DNA of 23,640 nt from a virus. The notes beneath the pieces were generated by a model. The model saw nothing but the letters and a program-made list of their open reading frames with translations, searched no databases and was not told where the DNA came from. The position numbers and the translations under genes were made by a program. Shown here one piece after another: positions 1,376 through 22,802 of the stretch (positions are counted from its first letter, which is position 1; every line of letters begins with the position of its first letter). The DNA lies in the IMG/VR virus record IMGVR_UViG_3300042549_001196, positions 1-23,640 of that record. One strand, given 5' to 3'.

Positions 1376-1488
1376 TCGGGTTTGTCGCTAATCTTAACGG
1401 CCTCAAACCATACAGCAAGTAGCAAACATATGCAGCCAAGGCCAGTGATGCCAAACAAAGCAAAAAGAATAATCGCCGCATTGCTCAT
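1372..1488 (-). CDS. Tiny membrane protein in lysis cassette, 38 aa
   Basis: An ATG at 1488 gives 38 codons ending at TGA (1372-1374). The product begins MSNAAIILFALFGITGLG and is almost all one transmembrane segment (residues 4-29), followed by a short charged tail (VKISDKPE). It overlaps the endolysin stop by an ATGA junction and the 76-aa gene by a second ATGA junction, so the three genes form a chain of four-base overlaps. That packing is the main evidence that it is real. A holin, antiholin or holin-partner role is inferred from position and topology. Confidence 0.7.
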   Translation of the reverse strand: MSNAAIILFALFGITGLGCICLLLAVWFEAVKISDKPE

Positions 1489-2015
1489 GCTGGCTTAATC
1501 ATGGCCGCATCCCATGCTTTAGCAAACTTGTCTGCGTCTTTAGCCATAGCAGGTGATAGTTCTACGTGCAACCACTTACCGCCGAAACTTCCGGCGTTAT
1601 CGGTAGCGGTGAAAATCTTTACCCCTGCTGCGTTTTCGCCGCGCGAGCACCTGAAGCCGCGACCATAGCCCTGATTCTTGTCTTTAGGATTTGCGTCATA
1701 GGCGTAGTCATGTATTTCTTCAATGCCTAGCTCTTTAGTGTGAGCCAGCAAAAAGTCCCATATAGCGATGCCAACCTTGCGGTCAGAATATCCAACGTCA
1801 CAGGCAGCCCCAGTGGAGTGGACTGATAGGAATTTATCCATGCCTGGGTCGCCAATCTTTTTGCCTGCGGTATGGGAGTTACGCATGAGCCTGACGGAAT
1901 AGATACCCATGTTTTTGGTTTTGAATTTGGCGGCACAAAGAGCAACCAGTTTTACGGTGCCTGGCTGTGCGCCTTTGCCATCGAACGCTGGATAGTAACT
2001 ATATTTTCTTGGCAT
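1485..2015 (-). CDS. Endolysin, M15-type (VanY/D-Ala-D-Ala carboxypeptidase-like) zinc peptidase, 176 aa
   Basis: The signature SVHSTGAACDVGY matches the SxHxxGxAxD zinc motif of M15 peptidases (H66 and D73), and KWLHVEL near the C-terminus supplies the third zinc ligand (H150) in the usual WxH context. A catalytic acidic residue is expected just before H150 in this family; I did not find an obvious one immediately upstream. These enzymes cut peptidoglycan stem peptides or cross-links, here to lyse the host at the end of infection. There is no signal peptide and no separate cell-wall binding domain, so delivery must rely on a holin. An AGAAAG ribosome site precedes the ATG. It is followed by overlapping small membrane-protein genes. 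Confidence 0.87.
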   Translation of the reverse strand: MPRKYSYYPAFDGKGAQPGTVKLVALCAAKFKTKNMGIYSVRLMRNSHTAGKKIGDPGMDKFLSVHSTGAACDVGYSDRKVGIAIWDFLLAHTKELGIEEIHDYAYDANPKDKNQGYGRGFRCSRGENAAGVKIFTATDNAGSFGGKWLHVELSPAMAKDADKFAKAWDAAMIKPA

Positions 2016-2121: not shown

Positions 2122-2292
2122 CTAATCGTCTACGCCAACTCCAAGAGCAATAGCAATGATGTTGATGACAAGGGTTCCTGCGCTAATAAGTAAAGCTTTA
2201 CTGAGTGCATCGCCAGACAGGGTGATAAGTACAAGGCCAGTTCCGGATGCCCATAGGACTAATGATGCGATTGCGCCAAAGTATTTACTCAT
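2122..2292 (-). CDS. Small two-helix membrane protein, holin candidate, 56 aa
   Basis: An ATG at 2292 gives a 56-aa product, beginning MSKYFGAIASLVLWASGTGL and ending with TAG at 2122-2124. It has two hydrophobic stretches, about residues 7-25 and 33-51, joined by a short polar loop (SGDALSK), and an acidic C-terminus (VDD). The class II holin-like topology and position two genes before the other lysis proteins and directly before the endolysin make it a good holin candidate. It begins 13 bases after the stop of the secreted Thr-rich gene. The ribosome site is weak, suggesting translational coupling. The role is inferred from topology and context only. Confidence 0.7.
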   Translation of the reverse strand: MSKYFGAIASLVLWASGTGLVLITLSGDALSKALLISAGTLVINIIAIALGVGVDD

Positions 2293-2305: not shown

Positions 2306-3355
2306 TCAGTTCCGGCGTTTGATGGCGGGGGCTATTGAGAAGACTGTGGTGATGGCGATGAGAGCGCGTCGGGTTTTGACGGGGACTGTGGAACCGATGG
2401 GTACGTAGGTGTCGGTTGCTCCACTGAAGATGTCTATTTCTTCTTCGAAGCTGGCTCGAACTTCTGTTGGGGCATCTTGAACTGCTGCCACTAACTGTTC
2501 TAACTGGGTGTCGGTAAGGTCGTCAAGGACTATGGCATCAAAGACTTCGGTTGCTTCTTCGGCGGTGATTGTGGCGAGAACTTCGGGGTTGGTTGCTACA
2601 GCGGTGGCTTCTTCAGCTGTGATGGTTGGCAGGATGACTGGGATTGTTGTAGTTGTGGTCGGTGCCACAGTGGTGGATGTAGTGGTAGTGGTTGGCGCAA
2701 TGGTCGTAGTAGTTTGAGGGACTGTAGTTGTACTTGTAGAAGTAGAGGTTGTAGATGTCGAACTTGTTGTGGTTGGCGGGATTGTCGTTGTTGATGGCGG
2801 GACTGTTGTACTTGTCGTTGTCGAAGAAGTGGTGGTAGACGTTGAGGTGGTTGTTGGCGGCAGTGTGGTTGTCGTGGTTGTGGTTGTTGTGGTGGTGGTA
2901 GACGTGGTAGAAGTCGTTGAAGTAGTCGTCGTCGGCTCCTCAGTGGTAGACGTGGTGTTGGCTGGTTGCCCATTGAAACTCAACTCATACCGTTCGTTCC
3001 AGCCAGGGTTATTGCGCCACACATCAGCCTGGTAACAGCAAGTACCGGCCCGTAAACGGTACCGACCAGGTTGCACCTGTATGGATATGTACGATTGCAA
3101 ACCAAAATGGTCATCGTTAGTTGCTAACTGAACACCTTGTTCGTCGTATAGCCACAGTTGCGGGTCAGAGTTGAACCCGTCAACCATGTATGTCCGTGCT
3201 TCAAACTGTGTCGGCTCGGTGTATTCAAACCAGTAATCAGTGATACCAGTAATGATTGGATTTTCTGCTTTAGCACTAGAGGCTAAGAACAGGATGGAAA
3301 GTGCAACCCCTACGAGGGCGTAACCGTTACGCCTTTTTGCCGAAGGCTGCTGCAA
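2306..3355 (-). CDS. Secreted Thr/Ser-rich protein with beta-sandwich head and conserved C-terminal segment, 349 aa
   Basis: It starts at a TTG (3355) preceded by AAAGAAGAAG and overlapping the preceding gene by 29 bases. Residues 1-30 form a clear signal peptide: a KRR n-region, a hydrophobic core and an AKA cleavage site. Residues about 35-130 resemble a PPC/bacterial pre-peptidase-type beta sandwich (DPQLWLYDEQG, then GRYRLRAGTCC). Residues about 133-238 are a mucin-like Thr/Ser/Pro stalk. The last 110 residues are alpha-helical with two near-copies of TITAEEAT, then a VPIGSTVPV segment and a hydrophobic stretch before KRRN. I recall similar C-termini in freshwater actinobacterial proteins. 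Function is unknown; an exported or envelope-anchored protein made late in infection is inferred. Confidence 0.8.
   Translation of the reverse strand: MQQPSAKRRNGYALVGVALSILFLASSAKAENPIITGITDYWFEYTEPTQFEARTYMVDGFNSDPQLWLYDEQGVQLATNDDHFGLQSYISIQVQPGRYRLRAGTCCYQADVWRNNPGWNERYELSFNGQPANTTSTTEEPTTTTSTTSTTSTTTTTTTTTTTTLPPTTTSTSTTTSSTTTSTTVPPSTTTIPPTTTSSTSTTSTSTSTTTVPQTTTTIAPTTTTTSTTVAPTTTTTIPVILPTITAEEATAVATNPEVLATITAEEATEVFDAIVLDDLTDTQLEQLVAAVQDAPTEVRASFEEEIDIFSGATDTYVPIGSTVPVKTRRALIAITTVFSIAPAIKRRN
2640..2960 (-). repeat. Low-complexity Thr/Ser/Pro-coding tract
   Basis: This stretch of the secreted-protein gene is a run of degenerate ACN/TCN codons giving alternating Thr, Ser and Pro blocks. 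On the plus strand it reads as GT-rich sequence and creates long spurious Val-rich frames. It is an in-frame tandem-type tract likely to vary in length between related phages. Confidence 0.8.
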
Positions 3356-3554
3356 CTTCTTCTTTAGTAAGGGTTCCGTCTTCAGACCATGAACGTAGCA
3401 ATGCTTCAGTTACTTTACCTGCGGCTACTACACCTGCGATAGCTGCTGATTTCCAGAGTTCAACACCAAAGATTGCGCCACCGGCTACAGCTGCGAGTGC
3501 GGATGACCCGAATACACCAAAGATTCGGAGGATGAGGGTTTGTAGTTTAATCAT
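3327..3554 (-). CDS. Holin-like small membrane protein, 75 aa
   Basis: The 75-aa product has a hydrophobic region from about residue 8 to 47 that can form two helices (SSALAAVAGGAIFGV and AAIAGVVAAGKV), then a charged amphipathic tail (EDGTLTKEEVAAAFGKKA). This layout, an Ala/Gly-rich membrane hairpin followed by a GxLTxxEVxxAF tail, resembles small holins annotated in actinophages as I remember them. It starts 15 bases after the collar-fibre gene and opens the lysis region. The tail could also suit a structural role, so the holin call is probable, not certain. Confidence 0.68.
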   Translation of the reverse strand: MIKLQTLILRIFGVFGSSALAAVAGGAIFGVELWKSAAIAGVVAAGKVTEALLRSWSEDGTLTKEEVAAAFGKKA

Positions 3555-7510: not shown

Positions 7511-8548
7511 TCATAGCCTATAGTGGGTCAGGTTTGTTTTGAGTCTTTCATCTGTTGGGTTTAACGCGACAGCATTGGAGCCGTGGAAGAACGCTTCGTC
7601 GCTGTCTCCGAGGTGGTGGCAGGCGATTGCCATGAGGTCGTGTGGGAGCCATCCCCATGCTTCTGCTTCGCATAGATAGTCCAATGGTTTTTCGGTGATT
7701 GCTAAAGCCGAGGATGCTGCGTTTCTACATCCGAGCCAGTTGTGTTCGTTGTGGTAGTAGAGGGCTAGGTCTACCCATGATTCTCGACGGGTTGGGTCTT
7801 CAGCTATGGCACGGTAAAGGTGGTAGTCAACTGCGTTGGGAACCATTTTGGCTAAGTACCGGTGGGATGCTGCTCGTTCTGGGAACCATGTTGCTAGGTC
7901 TAGGTGACGTGCGAAATGGTATTGAGCTAATCCGTAGTCACCGTGGAAGTACAGTTCACGGGCTAGGTAGAACTGGTTGCGGTCATCACGGGGGTCTTCT
8001 TCTACAGCAAGTTTGAGTAGGGGCAGGTATTGGCTGCGGGACTTTGAGCTGTCTGGATGGTGGTGGATTTCTAAACCATCTACCCAATGTTGGGTTTCTG
8101 TGTCTAATGGTTTGAGGACTTCGTGGACTGGGTGTTTCCAAATGTAGCCGTGTCTGCTGTGGATTTTGTCGCCACCGTAGGTGAGTCCTTCGGTTCCGTC
8201 GGGGTTCCATGACCATGTGTATTTGTATCGGGGTCGGGTGATACCAGTAGGGGTTGCTTCTAGTTTTTCACGCCATCCTGGTTGCAGAACTTCATCCATG
8301 TCCAGTGCGATGCACAGGTCTATGTCTTGGGGGAGCATGGAAAGTGCGGTGTTGCGGGCTGTGTCAAATCGCCACGGGCTGAACTCACGGGTGACGGTGT
8401 GGATACCGAGGGAGTGGGCTAGGTGGGTGGTGTTATCTGTGGAGCCTGTGTCAAGGATTAAGAGATGGTCTGCTTCTTTAGCGGAATCAGCCCATCGTTG
8501 GACAAAGGCTTCTTCGTTCTTGGCGATTGTGTATACGGCTATTTTCAT
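7511..8548 (-). CDS. Glycosyltransferase family 2 (GT-A) with TPR-like C-terminal half, 345 aa
   Basis: The N-terminal half carries the GT2 hallmarks: TIAKNEEAF at residues 7-15, LILDTGSTDNT (30-40, nucleotide-sugar binding), FDTARN (61-66), and the metal-binding ALDMDE (81-86) in place of DxD. KHPVHEVL (138-145) and HHHP (162-165) follow. Residues about 175-345 are helical TPR-like repeats (FYLARELYFHGDYGLAQYHF; DEAFFHGSNAVALNPTDERL), as in SunS-like and TPR-fused transferases. It would transfer a sugar to a protein or cell-wall acceptor. It is embedded among tail-fibre genes and overlaps the upstream gene by ATGA, so decoration of virion fibres or host surface is inferred. Sampled lines are 57-60% G+C, higher than its neighbours. 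Confidence 0.88.
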   Translation of the reverse strand: MKIAVYTIAKNEEAFVQRWADSAKEADHLLILDTGSTDNTTHLAHSLGIHTVTREFSPWRFDTARNTALSMLPQDIDLCIALDMDEVLQPGWREKLEATPTGITRPRYKYTWSWNPDGTEGLTYGGDKIHSRHGYIWKHPVHEVLKPLDTETQHWVDGLEIHHHPDSSKSRSQYLPLLKLAVEEDPRDDRNQFYLARELYFHGDYGLAQYHFARHLDLATWFPERAASHRYLAKMVPNAVDYHLYRAIAEDPTRRESWVDLALYYHNEHNWLGCRNAASSALAITEKPLDYLCEAEAWGWLPHDLMAIACHHLGDSDEAFFHGSNAVALNPTDERLKTNLTHYRL

Positions 8549-9645: not shown

Positions 9646-10671
9646 TTAAGGTCCGTAGTAATAGAAAAATACTAGTCCAGCACTACCTGCTTGGATTCCA
9701 GTTAAACCGAATCCTCCGTTACCGCCAGCACCATGATTATTAGGATTTCCGTGGGAACCATTTGCATTACTGTTGGTAGAACCACCGCCACCACCAGAGT
9801 TACCCCAAACACCATTACCGTCACCACCGTTACCAGCAGCAGCAAGACTGCCGTTACCGCCATTAGCATCCATTCCAGCACCACCACCAGCACGAGTTGT
9901 TGGTATTTTAGCACCATCAGTATAAAAACTACCGCCAGTACGGGCTACACCTTCACCACTGCCTAGGTTCCCACCTCTACCTTGATGTATGCCACCTTCA
10001 CCACCGCCTGCCGTGTATGAAGGGAAGTTGGTCCCACTTAAAGTTGTGCTAAGACCATTACCGCCATTACTAGATGCTGTACCACTATTATCACCAGCAC
10101 CACCACCACTACCAATACCAATACTTAATACGCCACTAGTACCAGTAAATGCACTTGAATGTGTATTTGTTGAACGAAGCCCACCTGCACCACCGCCGCC
10201 GCCACTGAAGGCTCCGCCACCTCCACCTCCAATAATAACAAACACTGGTAAAGCCGTAGGGTTTACGCCAGAAACAGTTGGAACGGTAAACGAATACAAA
10301 CCAGGAGTAGAGTTTGAATAAGTTAGTTTTCTCCATGTAGTAAACGAAGTAGAAGCAGAAGTAACAGAACCAATACTAGATGAGACTACAGCACGAACAT
10401 AATATAACTGACCAGAATCATTAATTGTTAATCCAGTGACAGTTGCGCTAGAAGAAAACGAACCAGTACCAGAACCAGAACCTACAACAGGCGTAAAAGA
10501 ACTAAAGTTGGAAACCGTACTGTAATGAAAAATCACTGTCGTGTTGGCTAGGTTGCCGTTAACTGTGGCGTTAAGAACTGCACGACTTTCCGTAACACCG
10601 GTTACGGCGTTTATTGTTACTGTAGGTCGTAGGTTTATAGCACCACCGAACACTCCACGACGGATGGGCAT
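9646..10671 (-). CDS. Polyglycine-rich tail adhesin with FN3-like domain, 341 aa
   Basis: Residues about 16-113 look like a fibronectin-III-type beta sandwich (AVTGVTESRAVLNATVNGN; SGQLYYVRAVVSSSIGSVTS). After a linker, residues 147-335 are dominated by Gly runs (IIGGGGGGAFSGGGGGAGG; GNSGGGGGSTN) broken by short loops, ending FFYYYGP. Glycine-run adhesins of this type (for example S16/T4-like gp38) fold as packed polyglycine-II helices whose loops contact receptors. The start overlaps the stop of the collagen-like fibre gene (TAATG). Fibre-tip adhesin is the best call; the FN3 assignment is by pattern only. Confidence 0.8.
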   Translation of the reverse strand: MPIRRGVFGGAINLRPTVTINAVTGVTESRAVLNATVNGNLANTTVIFHYSTVSNFSSFTPVVGSGSGTGSFSSSATVTGLTINDSGQLYYVRAVVSSSIGSVTSASTSFTTWRKLTYSNSTPGLYSFTVPTVSGVNPTALPVFVIIGGGGGGAFSGGGGGAGGLRSTNTHSSAFTGTSGVLSIGIGSGGGAGDNSGTASSNGGNGLSTTLSGTNFPSYTAGGGEGGIHQGRGGNLGSGEGVARTGGSFYTDGAKIPTTRAGGGAGMDANGGNGSLAAAGNGGDGNGVWGNSGGGGGSTNSNANGSHGNPNNHGAGGNGGFGLTGIQAGSAGLVFFYYYGP

Positions 10672-12461
10672 TATGCGCTCAAATCGCCAATGAGAACAAA
10701 ACTGTTAGAGCCGATACAAAACAAAGCCGCACTTGAATACTGGGTTCGCAGCTTCAACCCTGGTGTACCAACGAGCGTTGCACCACCAGCAGAAACCGTT
10801 ACTTGACCAGCACCAAGGCTGAGTAGGTCAATGCTTTGACCAGCAGTAGCTCCAGTAGAAGTACCAACAGTTACGGTCACAGCCGAAGGGTTATTTAATG
10901 TAACCATTTTTCCTAAGTCTGCTGTTAGTAATGTGTACGTCGTTCCTGTTTGTGTATTAACTGTTTGAGCTGTAGTGAATGTTCCTGTTGCGCCAGTAGG
11001 ACCCGTAGCACCTATTGGACCTGCGGGTCCAGTTACCGTACTTGCTGCACCTGTAGGTCCAGTTGGTCCTGTTGGTCCTGTGTCTCCTGCGTTTCCTTGA
11101 ATACCTTGTGTGCCTTGTGTACCTGTCGGTCCTTGCGCACCTGTAGGACCAGTAGCCCCATCTGCTCCAGCACCGCCAGCGGCACCTGTAGGTCCAGTTG
11201 GTCCAGTGACAGTAGAAGCCGCACCAGTGCCACCAGTTGCCCCTGTAGGACCCGTAGGCCCAGTTGCACCAGTAGGTCCCGTAACAGTAGACGCTGCGCC
11301 GGTTGCGCCAGTAGGACCCGTAGGTCCGATGTTGGCAATAACTAAAAGAACATTGTGGTTATTAGCAAAGTTTGTTGTGCCTGTGCCACCGCTAGAAACA
11401 TAAGAAACAGGAACATCAAGATAAGAGTTTCCGTAATCCGTAATCGTTGCGCTAACAGTAAACTTTTGAAAGTTAGCAGAGTTATTTGCGTCTTGAATAT
11501 AAACAGTATCGTTTGGTTTTAATAAACCAAGAAACAAGTCAATGTCGTAACCATCAACATCAATGTGGTTTATCTGCAATTGTGTCGCAGATATTTGAGT
11601 TGCGTTGTTATACGCAATCCTGGCAGTACCAGGGTTACCAGTTGTTGTACCTGTGTCAATTCTGTAGTCATAAAAACTTGACGATTGCCCTTGTGGACCT
11701 GTCGGACCTGTTGGTCCTGTAACGGTAGAAGCCGCACCTGTAGCACCTGTTGCACCTATCGGTCCCGTAGGTCCTGTAGAACCTGTAGGTCCTGTCACTG
11801 TTGAGTCGGCTCCTGTTGCACCTGTTGGTCCTGTAGGACCTGTAGGTCCTTGTGAACCAGTCGGTCCAGTGTTACCTATAATCCCTTGTGGTCCTTGTGT
11901 ACCTGTCGGTCCTTGCGCACCCGTAGGACCAGTCACTCCTTGTGGACCCGTAGGACCCGTCACTGTAGAAGCGGCTCCTGTAGGACCAGTAGGTCCAGTC
12001 ACTGTGGAAGCAGCCCCAGTAGGTCCTGTAGGACCCGTAACGTTACTTGCGTCACCTTGCGCCCCTGTAGGACCCGTCGGACCTGTAGGACCCGTTACGC
12101 CTTGGCTACCAGTAGGACCAGTAGGACCTGTAACGCCTTGAATACCTTGGGACCCTGTAGGACCTGTTACACCTTGCGACCCCGTAGGACCAGTAGAACC
12201 AGTCGGTCCAGTTACACCCTGTGAACCAGTAGAACCCGTAGGACCCGTAGGACCCGTTATACCCTGAGGACCAGTAGGACCAGTCGCGCCCTGAGGACCA
12301 GAGTTACCCGTAGTAACAACCGAAATAACAGCATCAACCGTAGTAGCCGACGTAGCCGGAATAACAACAGACCCAACAGTTTCAGTAGTGCGGGTAACCG
12401 CAATCAGATAAGTAGCTAAAGAAGTACCGCCACGATTGACCGTGATAAGGGTCGTAGCCAT
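10671..12461 (-). CDS. Collagen-like tail fibre with internal globular domain, 596 aa
   Basis: An N-terminal head (1-54) precedes Gly-Pro-Thr-type collagen triplets at about 55-257. A globular beta domain at about 258-375 interrupts them ([32 protein letters not shown]). A second collagen stretch follows (about 376-490), then a C-terminal beta domain with the common fibre-tip pattern ([29 protein letters not shown]). Such proteins form trimeric rods. It starts 2 bases after the Ig-like gene and shares a TAATG with the polyglycine adhesin, so the three are made together. Gly-X-Y with Thr in place of hydroxyproline is typical of phage collagens. Confidence 0.88.
10988..11332 (-). repeat. Collagen-like Gly-X-Y coding repeat, second tract
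   Basis: A second run of about 115 residues of Gly-X-Y triplets after the internal globular domain, again with repeated [11 protein letters not shown] units that match copies in the first tract. Shared units between the two tracts could allow recombination that removes the domain between them. Confidence 0.82.
11688..12299 (-). repeat. Collagen-like Gly-X-Y coding repeat, first tract
   Basis: About 200 residues of [12 protein letters not shown] triplets, with near-identical 9- and 18-base units (GGTCCTACGGGT-like). Includes several copies of an [13 protein letters not shown]-type 13-residue unit. The tract is likely prone to length change by slippage or recombination. Confidence 0.85.
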
Positions 12462-17434: not shown

Positions 17435-18054
17435 TACAGACTTCCTAACACTTTAGATACGTTGCTGATAGCAGACAGGTATTTTGTTGCGTCTGATTCG
17501 GCACCATATGTTTGTTCAATGCGACTCTTGAAGAACGTGTCGGCTGCCGGTGCTGTCTGTGTGGATGTCCCGCTAGATGCTGACTGGTATGAACTGACCA
17601 AGTTAGATACTGCTTTGTCGTCTAGTTTGCGACCCATAACGGTAAGGGCTGTTTGCTGCAAGATTTCTTTAAGGTCTAAAGCTGATGGGACTCTGTTGAC
17701 AGCACTTGAACCCAATACGAGGTCTGGGCCTTTTGCTACTTCCCCAAGCAATGTTTGCCAATCGGTGCTTTTGGCAATGGCTGTTTGGTATAAATCTTTG
17801 AAAGCACCAAGGTCGCTATTTCCAAATCCGTTTCCTCTTTTGGATGAGCCGTACCAGCCTTTTGCTTTAAGTATTCCTTGGATTTGGTTGCGTCTAATGT
17901 CGTCTAACCCACCAAGAATTTCACGTACTTTTTGGTCGCTAATTTCAGAGCCACCGCCGCCACCGCCGCCAAGTGATTTGATGCCTTCAATGGCTGCGCC
18001 AAGGTCGGCAGATACAGGTCCGGAATTTGGCATTGGGTTTGGTGTATTGCTCAT
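17434..18054 (-). CDS. Hypothetical virion-associated protein with glycine run, 206 aa
   Basis: The N-terminus is Pro/Ser-rich and disordered, then has a seven-Gly run near residue 31. A helical middle (QKVREILGGLDDIRRNQIQG) with a GWYGSS turn and a DLKEILQQTALTVMGRKLDD helix pair follow; that last region has the LLGR-x-L-x-D type spacing seen in repeats of actinophage structural proteins. No catalytic residues are evident. It is joined by TAATG overlaps to the 1582-aa gene before and the 523-aa gene after, so co-expression at fixed ratio is likely. Function not known. Confidence 0.7.
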   Translation of the reverse strand: MSNTPNPMPNSGPVSADLGAAIEGIKSLGGGGGGGSEISDQKVREILGGLDDIRRNQIQGILKAKGWYGSSKRGNGFGNSDLGAFKDLYQTAIAKSTDWQTLLGEVAKGPDLVLGSSAVNRVPSALDLKEILQQTALTVMGRKLDDKAVSNLVSSYQSASSGTSTQTAPAADTFFKSRIEQTYGAESDATKYLSAISNVSKVLGSL

Positions 18055-21000
18055 TACTCAACTTCTTTCGATAGCAACCTATCGTACACCCGTGCGAACT
18101 CAGGATATTTCTCTGTGAGCGCACGAGCATAAGACGCAAGATAGTTTTGCAAATCAGAAACTTTTTCAGATTTCAACGATGACAGTCCACGGTTGGATGC
18201 CTCGACAAGTGCTTCCTGGCGGACAGCCGCATAGTTACGGACAGCAAGTGCGACGTTATTATTGTCTAGGTCTGGTCGTGCCGCTGCTTTAATGAGTGAT
18301 TCAATTTGCTTGGGTACCTTGTTAGGGTCGTAAACCATTTGTGCATAACCAGGATATTTAGCGTTTAACATATCTCGGTATTGGGACATGTACTGTTGCT
18401 GTTCATCATCCATGGAGTCAGGGAATTGCGCTCTGAGGGTTCGATAGTAAGCCATACCAACGGTTTGTTCTGCCGATGCAAGCATTTCTTCAGGAGATAG
18501 TTTCTTGCGTTCGCCCGCAGCTAACTGGCGTTGATACACAGTCTGGTCAAAGTCTGTTCCTACAGGTCCAAAGAATCCAGCAACATCACGGAACTGGTTA
18601 AACAAACCCTTGTTTGTGCGTTGGAAATCACCAAACTGTTTTGATGCGTCAAGACCGCCATATAGAGATTTGGTTTTGTTGCCCATATATGTGAAGGCAT
18701 CTTCACCGAATACGTCAATGAAGTTGATTACTGCGGTGTCGTAGTCTTTGGTTTGCATTTCACGGAACGCCTGAGCTAACACTGAAGTGTAGACATCCCC
18801 GCCTTTGGCGTGGATTTTAGGGTCGTATGAACCTGATGCTGGACCAGTGAACTGGGTTAATCCACGAAGAATTGAAAGATAACGAGCTTGGGTTTTGGCA
18901 TCATTCATTAATCGTTCACGGTCATTGGAATCTGAAGTGTTGTATTTGCCGGTAGCAGATAATGCCTGCATGGTTTCTACAAGGGTGTTCATAAAAATTG
19001 TTGAGCCTTCATTGCCGGTAAGACCGTCAAGAACTTTAGTAATCCAAGTAGGTATCAAGGCTTGGTTTAGCGAACCCCTTTCACCGAACGGGAGCAGTAT
19101 GCTGCGGATGGTGTCTGTTGATGGGGAATCAGGAAGAAGTTTTGATACAGACCATGTAGCTACAGGGCCTAGCCCTGGCTTCCAGTCAAGACCTTGACCG
19201 ATGCCTTTAACGGAAGCGTTGATAGGTGATTCAACACCAAATAATGCTCTGGTTAAATGGCCCGACAATGGGAAGGTAAAACTCCATTGACCTGATTGTG
19301 GGTCTTTGTATACAAAGCCACGCCCGTTTTGGTCTGGGTCGCCTGTTGTTGCTCCATGAACAATAAGTTGTCCTTTACGAAGAACGTTTACGTCAGGGAT
19401 AATGCTTGGACCGCTGGCGTTAATCGGGTTAAATGCAAGGTTGCTCATACGCCCAATAAATTCTGCCCATTGCTGTGCGAATGGAGAAATGATACGCATA
19501 GCGTCAACACCGTTGCGTCGGTCTACAGCGTTGTAAAACATTTTCATTGTGTCGTCAACAGCTTGACCTGCTGCAAAAGCATTTAGTTCGGCAGCGTTGA
19601 TAGTGCCGTATGATTTTCTTGCGCCACTTTGTAGGTCTTGTAGTTTTGCCCAGGTTTCTTTTCCAACCATAAGTTCTGGTCGTTTACCTGACGAGGTTGC
19701 TCTTTTGGTTATGTCGTTAATGATTTGGTTAATGGATGCTTTATCTAGCGAGTCGGCTAGTTTGTTTACCCATGTGTAATATATTTCACGGAATACTGGA
19801 GAACGTTCCATTGTGGCAATAGGGGTGTTGTATAACTTGCCATGAAACAAATCTGTTACGCGACTCATTGAGTCTTTGAGTGTTGACGATTCAGGGGTGC
19901 GAGGGTCAATTATTTCAGCGACAACACGTGGAGGCATATTAGGGTCATCATAAATACTTGCATCACCTAACCTTTTTGTTAATTCAGGTGTTGCTTCTCC
20001 ATCAACAAAAGCAAACGGTCTAACAGTAATCTCACCAGAGGCTTGGTTTATTCCGGTTATTTCTCCTTGGGCTAAACGCCTTTCGCCTTGTTTGTAAATA
20101 ACTCTTTCACCAATAGCAACTTTGCCTTGTTCAATAAGTGCAGAAGTTATATTTAGTTCTTTAACTTTTCCTTGGGCAATGATGTCGTAAAGTTCTGGAT
20201 TTTTGCCTGTTATGTAGTCAAGACGAGATTGAATTTCTCCTATATGCGCAAGAAGGTTTTGGTCGTCAGTTAAATCTATTGATTGTGTTCCCCATGCTTC
20301 TTCTCTTGAAGGTTTGGTTTTATCAAAAGTTGCACGGCCATCTTTGTAGTATTGCTTCATGGTGTCAAACCATTTGATTGCATCTTTGTCTTTGCGTTTA
20401 ATCATTATAAGGATGTCTTCTGGGGTTACATCACCATTTGATTTGTTGGCTAGTGTTCGAGCAAGCCAGTCAGCATTTAGTTTTCCTATTTCATCTGCAT
20501 GACCACGGATGTAGTCAGCGGGAGTGTCAATGTTTTTAGTGCGGGCAGTAAAGTTTCCTAAACGTGTTGCTTTACGCCAGGCAGTAACGGGGTCTTGATA
20601 ACGTGAGTTCAATGCTTGTGTAGTCACAAATTTTTTGGCTTCTTGTGCATCTGACAATTGGTTAACGGAAACTTCTGCATCAAAGTTGCGCCCAAATAAA
20701 TCTGCAAATTTGTAGCGTGGTCCTTTACCGACAACAGGTACGCCAGTTAATGACAGGTAATGAAAAGGGTGACGGAAAAGACTGCTGACAGGTTTGCTTG
20801 ATAACGCAATCATTAACTGAGAGTCAACGGTGTTACGTACAAAGTTACCCATTGTCAAGGTAACTATTGGCCGCCAAAAATCTTCTTGAAGGTTTACAAG
20901 TGCAGAGAACGGAACACGCAATTGTCCAGCCTCTACAAGAGCTTTTATGTTGGGGTCGCCCACAACGCCTTGTTTGGCGATAACCCAGTTGATTGGTTTA

Positions 21001-22802
21001 GAAGCAGTAAGTCTTCTGAGTTGGCGCACATCAGGAATGTAGTAGTCGTGCTGTGCGAATTCGGATGTTAAACCTGGGCCTGCCCATGTAACGTCGTTTC
21101 CGGCAACCGGAGGAAGTCCGTTCATTTTGTTGAATGAACCCCAGTCTTGGATGTCTGATGATTCGTCACCAGCAAATCTTGATTGGCTATCTCTAAGTTT
21201 TTTTACGCCATCAAATACTGCATCAACAATTTCACGATGCACCGATTCTGTGCCGATTTCAATTTCTGCTGTCTTGGCTTTTCTGTCAAGTTTTGTAATA
21301 TATGCAGCTTCACCAGAGTCGGTAACTACACGTTGACCAACAACAAAGTTTCTATCAAAAGCATTTTGGTGACTTTTTAATGTTGAAAGGTCGGCAGTTT
21401 TTTGTTCAGCAGCTTTGAATCCGCTAGAAGATTTACGTATTGCTTCATCAAATCTGTTGGTAAAATTTTCAATTTTGTTTGGATTCTTTTCTACCATCAC
21501 CGCAGCAGCTTGGTTAAGTAATGACCGTGCTTGGGTTGGTTCAACAAGAGACAGTTTTAACATGCGGTCAATAGTGTCAAGGTGTTTGATTTGGTCAGCA
21601 GGGCTTTCTGCTTTGAACAAGTTAAAACTACGGTTCGGGACATAAGCATATGCTCGTGAAACTTTACGGCCAAGAGCGTGTTGGTTTAGATATTTGTCCC
21701 TATTGGCGAGAGACATGTAAACCTTTTTTCCACCCTTAATGTCCCCAGTGTCTACAAGACCCTTGTGTGTCCCAAGTTGGTCAAGAAGCATAAGTCGAAT
21801 CTTGTTTGGGTCTGATTCTTTAGCCAAATTCAAAGCAAGTTGTGGTTCAATTTTTTTACCAAACAAACTCCATACACTAGAAAAATCATTAGTTTCAGCG
21901 GTGCGTTCAATAACACGTTGAGCATGGGCAGTGCCAAACCAGCGGTTTGCTTTTTCAAAATCAACTTGACTTCCAACAAGGATTCCTTTGCGGGCATCAT
22001 CAATTTCTTTAGCTGTCATTTTGGTTGCATTGATGACGGTTGAGCCTTTGCCTACCGACTCTAAGGCACGGGCAGTACCGGCTACAACGCGACCACCTTT
22101 TCCTGCTTCTTCAGCAGCAACAATGGCACCTTTAACTTGTTTGGCACCTGGGATTGTGGGGACAGCAAGTGCTGTAGCGGCATCAAAAACGCCAGACATG
22201 AGGTTGAAACCTAGAGTGTCGGGAGTAAAAACTGTGCTGGCAAGTCCACGGCCAATAGTCCACGCATGTCCACCGATAGTTCCACGATACTCACGTGCGC
22301 GTTGCGCTTGAAGTTGGCGGGCTTTCCCACCCAAAAAATACCCTGTGCCTGCTTCGGTATCGTTTTTAATTAACGACCCTAAATCTGTTGATGCAAACCA
22401 TCCATCAATGCTGGAGTTGTTATCAAATGCTTGCGCAGCGGTGCCTTGGATAACGTCAAGAGGAAGGTTTAATGCTGCAAAGCCGTATCGTGAACCAGTT
22501 TTAACTTTGTCCATTACATTGCGTTGGTACCATGTTTTTTGTTTTGGTGGTTCAGTAGCAGAAACTAAAGAAACGCCAGTTGCGTGAGGATAAATTTTGT
22601 TGATGATGTCGTTAGACATACCTGATTTAGCCATTGCAAGTTTTACACCAAGAGTTAAACCAGGGTATGCGCCATGTATTTCACCAAGGCGAGTAGCTGT
22701 TTGTGGGGTGGCTGTTGATTTGAATTGCTCAACTTTTGCGTTCTCTGATTGGAGGGTGTCAAAAATTACTTTATCTACAGCAAAGCTATTTGTTTTAGTC
22801 AC
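18054..22802 (-). CDS. Giant virion protein, probable internal/ejection protein, 1582 aa
   Basis: The start codon is GTG (22802), overlapping the upstream TAG by one base. It is by far the largest gene here. The product is mostly helical with no tape-measure heptads. Two short SH3/KOW-like beta segments stand out, near residues 483-515 (VVGQRVVTDSGEAAYITKLD) and 890-925 (AIGERVIYKQGERRLAQGEI). Around 640-660, FWRPIVTLTMGNFVRNTVDS recalls large fused structural proteins of actinophages. The C-terminus has repeated Tyr/Pro helices (KYPGYAQMVYD; KYPEFARVYDRLLSK). No MuF, protease or lysozyme motif was seen. Position upstream of scaffold and capsid and size comparable to T7 gp16 favour an ejected core protein; this is inference. 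Confidence 0.7.
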   Translation of the reverse strand: MTKTNSFAVDKVIFDTLQSENAKVEQFKSTATPQTATRLGEIHGAYPGLTLGVKLAMAKSGMSNDIINKIYPHATGVSLVSATEPPKQKTWYQRNVMDKVKTGSRYGFAALNLPLDVIQGTAAQAFDNNSSIDGWFASTDLGSLIKNDTEAGTGYFLGGKARQLQAQRAREYRGTIGGHAWTIGRGLASTVFTPDTLGFNLMSGVFDAATALAVPTIPGAKQVKGAIVAAEEAGKGGRVVAGTARALESVGKGSTVINATKMTAKEIDDARKGILVGSQVDFEKANRWFGTAHAQRVIERTAETNDFSSVWSLFGKKIEPQLALNLAKESDPNKIRLMLLDQLGTHKGLVDTGDIKGGKKVYMSLANRDKYLNQHALGRKVSRAYAYVPNRSFNLFKAESPADQIKHLDTIDRMLKLSLVEPTQARSLLNQAAAVMVEKNPNKIENFTNRFDEAIRKSSSGFKAAEQKTADLSTLKSHQNAFDRNFVVGQRVVTDSGEAAYITKLDRKAKTAEIEIGTESVHREIVDAVFDGVKKLRDSQSRFAGDESSDIQDWGSFNKMNGLPPVAGNDVTWAGPGLTSEFAQHDYYIPDVRQLRRLTASKPINWVIAKQGVVGDPNIKALVEAGQLRVPFSALVNLQEDFWRPIVTLTMGNFVRNTVDSQLMIALSSKPVSSLFRHPFHYLSLTGVPVVGKGPRYKFADLFGRNFDAEVSVNQLSDAQEAKKFVTTQALNSRYQDPVTAWRKATRLGNFTARTKNIDTPADYIRGHADEIGKLNADWLARTLANKSNGDVTPEDILIMIKRKDKDAIKWFDTMKQYYKDGRATFDKTKPSREEAWGTQSIDLTDDQNLLAHIGEIQSRLDYITGKNPELYDIIAQGKVKELNITSALIEQGKVAIGERVIYKQGERRLAQGEITGINQASGEITVRPFAFVDGEATPELTKRLGDASIYDDPNMPPRVVAEIIDPRTPESSTLKDSMSRVTDLFHGKLYNTPIATMERSPVFREIYYTWVNKLADSLDKASINQIINDITKRATSSGKRPELMVGKETWAKLQDLQSGARKSYGTINAAELNAFAAGQAVDDTMKMFYNAVDRRNGVDAMRIISPFAQQWAEFIGRMSNLAFNPINASGPSIIPDVNVLRKGQLIVHGATTGDPDQNGRGFVYKDPQSGQWSFTFPLSGHLTRALFGVESPINASVKGIGQGLDWKPGLGPVATWSVSKLLPDSPSTDTIRSILLPFGERGSLNQALIPTWITKVLDGLTGNEGSTIFMNTLVETMQALSATGKYNTSDSNDRERLMNDAKTQARYLSILRGLTQFTGPASGSYDPKIHAKGGDVYTSVLAQAFREMQTKDYDTAVINFIDVFGEDAFTYMGNKTKSLYGGLDASKQFGDFQRTNKGLFNQFRDVAGFFGPVGTDFDQTVYQRQLAAGERKKLSPEEMLASAEQTVGMAYYRTLRAQFPDSMDDEQQQYMSQYRDMLNAKYPGYAQMVYDPNKVPKQIESLIKAAARPDLDNNNVALAVRNYAAVRQEALVEASNRGLSSLKSEKVSDLQNYLASYARALTEKYPEFARVYDRLLSKEVE

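Follow-up and report, generated by a model that had tools for sequence, protein, structure and literature searches.

The window analysed here is a 23,640-base stretch of viral DNA (IMG/VR virus record IMGVR_UViG_3300042549_001196, positions 1 to 23,640). Along the direction of transcription, its minus strand carries genes for a collar fibre, a holin candidate, a stalked exported protein, a two-span hairpin, an endolysin candidate and small membrane proteins. The collar fibre gene (4703-3570) lies directly ahead of the holin candidate (3327..3554), which encodes 75 amino acids and was assigned, like the holins at all other loci, by size, position and conservation. Its product matches phrog_26427, a family labelled 'nuclease'; the label looks wrong, and this 75-aa membrane protein is holin-like in the cassettes seen. 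The endolysin candidate (1485..2015, minus strand) was assigned by an M15-like catalytic-motif pattern, SVHxxGxAxD...WxHxE, the residues of which are kept in four divergent relatives. No Pfam or PDB-sequence match was obtained for the candidate itself, and VanY peptidases fill its slot in relatives.

The stalked protein (2306..3355, minus strand; 349 aa, TTG start) is supported by its open reading frame, by 36 viral relatives found with its own sequence as query and by purifying selection on its head. The original prediction had described this reading frame from the DNA alone and placed it correctly between the holin and endolysin candidates; the signal peptide, the beta-sandwich head and the Thr/Ser/Pro stalk of about 100 residues that it proposed were all recovered. 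The signal peptide covers residues 1-30 (3266..3355), with a probable cleavage site at AKA|ENP. Judged by the A/V-x-A rule and not by SignalP, the site is conserved directly ahead of the mature start in 42/42 distinct PPC-headed relatives (AKA|ENPI in the window). The TTG lies within the 3'-terminal part of the holin-like gene upstream and is the sole start codon that keeps the signal peptide intact. It was found at the start position in 36 of the 42 relatives, where the upstream reading frame also constrains that position.

The head (residues 31-130; 2966..3265) adopts a PPC-like beta-sandwich in an AlphaFold2 model built with 23 sequences from the window and related loci (residues 39-127, pLDDT roughly 70-94). 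A Foldseek search of the PDB with this head returned PPC and collagen-binding domains, namely 3afg (E 1.8e-4), 5sv5 (TMt 0.60) and the ColG CBD 1nqd, each with a probability of 1.00, whereas the Pfam PPC model matched neither the window protein nor its relatives. Purifying selection acts on the head (pN/pS 0.26), and no 10-residue block exceeds a pN/pS of 0.41, so a diversifying head was rejected at this resolution. The stalk (residues 131-238; 2642..2965) contains 66 Thr, 17 Ser and 11 Pro in 108 residues and was predicted to be disordered (about 131-239). It is written with all four Thr codons and is thus not a simple codon repeat. As a whole, the protein has no family in Pfam, PHROGs or PADLOC; a SOG2 match was discarded as low-complexity.

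The last ~105 residues of the protein recur in more than 500 IMG/VR contigs. Together with the purifying selection on the head, this indicates that the locus is more than a chance reading frame. This C-terminal module consists of five helices, a YVPxGSxxxVxxRR motif, a short membrane helix and a basic tail. The helical part (residues 245-306, AVQDAPTEVR.SFEEEIDIF; 2438..2623, minus strand) was delimited by AlphaFold2 and alignments A1 and A3, and its five helices were modelled with confidence (247-306, pLDDT about 90). The motif, YVPIGSTVPVKTRR in the window (residues 317-330; 2366..2407), is near-invariant in phage and host copies. A short hydrophobic helix (residues 331-345) and the basic tail KRRN (together 2309..2365) follow in the sequence, and the AlphaFold2 model, of low confidence at its end, places the terminal helix at 326-341. 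Two kinds of ending were found: a short hydrophobic stretch with a mostly basic tail, or a Gly/Ser linker leading into a TLSG two-span hairpin. The module gave no Pfam or NCBIfam match above cut-off, no PADLOC family and no convincing PHROG match. SEA-type autoproteolysis, suggested by the GSxxxV residues, was unsupported because the module is helical in the model, and the hits of a PDB sequence search (protein A and other helical proteins) were not believed.

A second gene, missed in the first reading, is part of the stalked-protein unit. The hairpin ORF (2122..2292, minus strand) starts 13 bp past the stop codon of the stalked protein and encodes 56 amino acids with two membrane spans and the sequence LVLITLSG. 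Counted by HMM, a hairpin was adjacent or fused in 115/115 distinct viral and bacterial modules whose downstream DNA could be read; three further modules were cut off at the contig end. Among viral loci, 91 hairpins were adjacent and 10 fused, compared with five and nine in hosts, and no module lacked one. An unfused hairpin is encoded immediately downstream, with a spacing of about -3 to +40 bp; the two genes overlap or nearly do so, suggesting translational coupling. A reciprocal scan from the hairpin alone found the module beside it in 79 of 80 loci by the HMM test. In the exception (L381; 2-943 and 947-1168), the module's place is taken by a secreted protein that ends in a canonical sortase tail (LPVTG-helix-KKG). 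Moreover, module and hairpin distances are correlated among 60 representatives (Mantel r 0.67, 0/999 permutations). The pairing counts, the reciprocal scan and the correlated distances together indicate that the window hairpin is most plausibly the stalked protein's partner.

All 13 hairpins tested, from phages and hosts, match phrog_29041, a family of unknown function whose entry does not mention pairing (window hairpin, E 9.2e-6; best member, 6e-35). The hairpin is small, has two membrane spans and lies near an endolysin, and in these respects it looks like a holin. An orphan holin nevertheless seems unlikely in view of the obligate pairing, the fusions, the host chromosomal copies and the separate holin candidate at 3554-3327.

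Linkage to lysis genes was assessed in the 84 distinct viral loci that have 2.5 kb or more of sequence downstream. Within 2.5 kb of the pair, an endolysin homolog was present in 69 and a holin-like gene, homologous to the window's candidate, in 63. Two gene orders predominate, one with the holin upstream and the endolysin downstream (24 loci) and one with both downstream (34 loci), and the linked endolysins belong to different families. A scan with the hairpin only gave a holin-like gene and/or an endolysin homolog at 37 of 47 distinct loci. Neither gene was found nearby in 12 of the 84 loci, large phages included; the pair lies apart from lysis genes in the large phages DSL-LC01, L148, L150, L161, L183 and L184.

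Two samples of related contigs, whose counts are not independent events, were chosen without reference to the module. In the first, relatives of the 626-aa tail gene of the window were followed over 6 kb or more of downstream sequence: of 44 contigs, the collar fibre was present in 44, the C-terminal module in 43, a PPC head in 32 and a window-type endolysin in 19. The original prediction held that phage late genes rarely encode exported, stalked proteins; for this phage group, the near-universal pair (43/44) contradicts that generalization. Among 49 relatives of a VanY endolysin, the hairpin was present in all 49 and the module in 41. Six of the eight exceptions were examined (L305, L313, L315, L351, L359 and L361), and each encodes an exported protein of ~80 aa with no head and no stalk, consisting of a signal peptide, a short ectodomain, a GS-x-I-x3-QR motif, a membrane helix and a basic (RRK) tail. 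These genes (L305:4351-4587, L361:4314-4565 and similar ones) lie directly upstream of hairpin, holin and VanY endolysin genes. This sister lineage kept the membrane core and the hairpin in the same cassette slot. Other phage heads include PA14 (8/38), FN3 (4/38), SUEL lectin and LCCL domains, folds that, judging by their families, are often ligand-binding. Because the module is near-universal and the heads are swapped or absent, the constant part is the membrane base and the head is optional.

Several other window genes were noted. A glycosyltransferase family 2 gene of the late region (7511-8548; phrog_13126) is present in 24 of the 38 relatives of the 626-aa tail gene whose contigs reach 5.5 kb or further upstream, compared with 14/38 for a 363-aa gene; the substrate of the enzyme might be the host surface or the Thr stalk. 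A 596-aa collagen-like protein with long Gly-Pro-Thr repeats (10671-12461) has similar genes on some related contigs. Furthermore, a 1,582-aa protein is encoded at 18054-22802, and its 648-aa C-terminal part gave no PHROG match.

A first genome scan with alignment A1 returned no host relative. The broader alignment A2 identified six loci with full-length homologs in GTDB-species MAGs labelled Actinobacteria, Actinomycetes and Acidimicrobiaceae, and a phage-only distribution was therefore rejected. The C-terminus is thus host-type, as originally proposed. In the host loci read in detail, the homolog lies among chromosomal metabolic and transport genes. Whole-genome searches at three taxonomic levels found it in 7/395 (class), 14/201 (family) and 3/396 genomes (phylum), the last comprising two already known and one weak match with an internal stop. 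The expected host relatives were accordingly present in Acidimicrobiia-type genomes and, apart from this weak match, absent elsewhere in the phylum sample. The homolog was always single-copy, and no lysis genes were found near it at the loci examined, so the device as such is not specific to lysis. In four host genomes (L211, L212, L216 and L217) it is flanked by genes for a cytochrome P450-like protein and an MFS transporter, an arrangement that points to vertical retention within the lineage. Among the heads of host copies are RCC1, DUF4082 and DUF285. AlphaFold2 gave no confident packing of membrane helices for a fused host C-terminus. PF02366, a protein O-mannosyltransferase-type family, matched in four of six host genomes; it is too general to support stalk glycosylation. 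In the module tree, the host copies fall into a single clade of weak support (0.67) that joins large phages (local support 0.98), most of them with a fused hairpin; the window copy lies deep in a separate phage radiation. This topology speaks against a recent capture of a host adhesin, one of the origins first considered for this gene.

We regard it as highly probable that the protein is exported, stalked, membrane-based and obligately paired. Architecture, obligate pairing, cassette linkage and exchangeable heads can all be read at the level of sequence; surface exposure, a physical complex, late timing and a role in lysis are what we infer. Our leading interpretation, to which we assign a probability of roughly 40%, is that the two proteins would form a membrane-anchored, wall-crossing envelope unit that is a core part of the lysis cassette and mediates a third lysis step resembling that of LysZ or the spanins. 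The stalked protein would be exported through its signal peptide, and the module, the YVPxGS..RR motif and the short helix would anchor it, alongside the 56-aa TLSG hairpin, in the cytoplasmic membrane, giving three membrane spans in total. In the predicted topology, the head is outside, the C-terminal helix spans the membrane, and the hairpin is N-in/C-in with TLSG outside. The Thr-rich stalk could then take the PPC head across the wall to the surface layer. Produced late, together with holin and endolysin, the unit would engage the outermost envelope from the membrane and, after the wall is cut, help the envelope to yield or the phage to escape, with the head tuned to the host.

LysZ of Corynebacterium phages CL31 and Cog is a membrane protein for which a spanin-like action on surface lipoglycan has been proposed (PMC13056207). 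Like LysZ, the window protein appears to be an accessory lysis protein that is anchored in the membrane and reaches outside the cell, encoded in the lysis cassette of an actinophage. Compared by description only, LysZ differs in having 177 aa and one N-in/C-out span, whereas the window unit has a signal peptide, a C-terminal anchor, a long Thr stalk, exchangeable folded heads and a hairpin partner. A further trait of LysZ is its deletion phenotype of small plaques, which is rescued when the host lacks the surface lipoglycan. With the spanins of Gram-negative phages it shares an envelope-crossing protein pair in the lysis cassette. Spanin pairs include an outer-membrane lipoprotein; the window unit has none, and both its parts are predicted in one membrane. 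The best reading is that the unit works like LysZ or the spanins and is a member of neither. The order of motif, hydrophobic helix and basic tail at the extreme C-terminus recalls LPxTG and PEP-CTERM tails, but the motif is YVPxGS instead of LPxTG, there is one such protein per genome and its hairpin partner is conserved. A multi-substrate sorting tag of the PEP-CTERM kind was rejected on the basis of the single match in each positive genome. Sortases are present in the host genomes, and YVPxGS may be a non-canonical sorting signal. The head shares its fold with the PPC domains of B. anthracis collagenase (5sv5) and ColG (CBD), differing in that no peptidase is attached, Pfam PPC does not match and identity is 17-20%. 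Among 50,697 phage records, the only match was the Actinomycetia phage DSL-LC01, whose WJZ48438 has a homologous C-terminal module with a fused hairpin; it differs in its length (944 aa), its other heads and its position away from the phage's endolysin, and is annotated as hypothetical. DSL-LC01 is itself metagenome-assembled, and therefore no cultured phage with the cassette was found among these records. A literature search returned no earlier description of the unit.

Of the three roles first suggested for the protein, the near-universal, cassette-bound distribution favours a lysis accessory, with surface coating for exclusion as a serious rival. The core distribution and the cassette linkage both point to a function in lysis or exit more than to an optional exclusion gene. 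Exclusion genes tend to be patchy, and presence in 43/44 contigs is unusual for them. Still, a displayed head that binds or covers the phage receptor late, blocking superinfection and the re-adsorption of progeny to the dying cell or debris, is a possibility to be taken seriously, if a doubtful one: the heads are exported, anchored, stalked and lectin-like, and they swap on a constant base, as they would if the head followed changes in the host receptor. PADLOC gave no match for such an exclusion function, the head has no fast-evolving segment and headless lineages retain the pair. These headless versions also count against the lysis reading, because the head is dispensable for whatever the core does. 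Host homologs away from lysis genes, the 12 viral loci with neither gene nearby and the uncertain membrane packing in AlphaFold2 weigh against it as well. Alternatively, the membrane core could be an antiholin-type brake on the neighbouring holin and the head could sense the surroundings, a function like that of T4 RI; headless lineages keep the core, the invariant core adjoins the holin with overlapping or nearly overlapping genes, and the two-span hairpin is of holin-like size. We consider such a timing regulator unlikely, however, given that some hairpins are fused parts of surface proteins as long as 1,426 aa and others lie on host chromosomes without a holin.

The RCC1, DUF4082 and DUF285 heads of host homologs, together with the LPxTG-tailed protein that replaces one phage copy, would fit a modified host adhesin, in which the phage has adopted a surface-display device of its host so that infected cells or debris adhere to particles or to other cells. 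This explanation seems slightly less plausible still, as the window copy is not close to the host copies and the tight linkage to lysis cassettes is left unexplained. Finally, the gene lies downstream of a collar fibre gene, and PPC, PA14 and FN3 folds are also known from tail proteins, as would be the case for a tail or decoration protein encoded in the lysis region by chance. A signal peptide with a cleavage site kept in 42/42 relatives, a C-terminal membrane helix with an obligate membrane partner and homologs on host chromosomes make a virion component very improbable.

Envelope exit beyond holin and endolysin is an open question for actinobacterial and other Gram-positive hosts, and LysZ is among the few answers proposed. 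More specifically than the third lysis step, and more tentatively, the unit could be a hitherto undescribed, near-universal cassette component of freshwater actinophages in which a two-protein membrane platform, its base shared with Acidimicrobiia chromosomes, presents interchangeable lectin-like heads on a mucin-like stalk, so that exit is tuned to the host surface. Hundreds of contigs from uncultured phages, mostly of fresh water, carry the unit as a core component, and the two-gene architecture is testable. In addition, the unit supplies the TLSG family phrog_29041 with a partner and places it in a context. From the chromosomal homologs, phage and host seem to share a surface-display system; if so, the two would show different heads on the same base.
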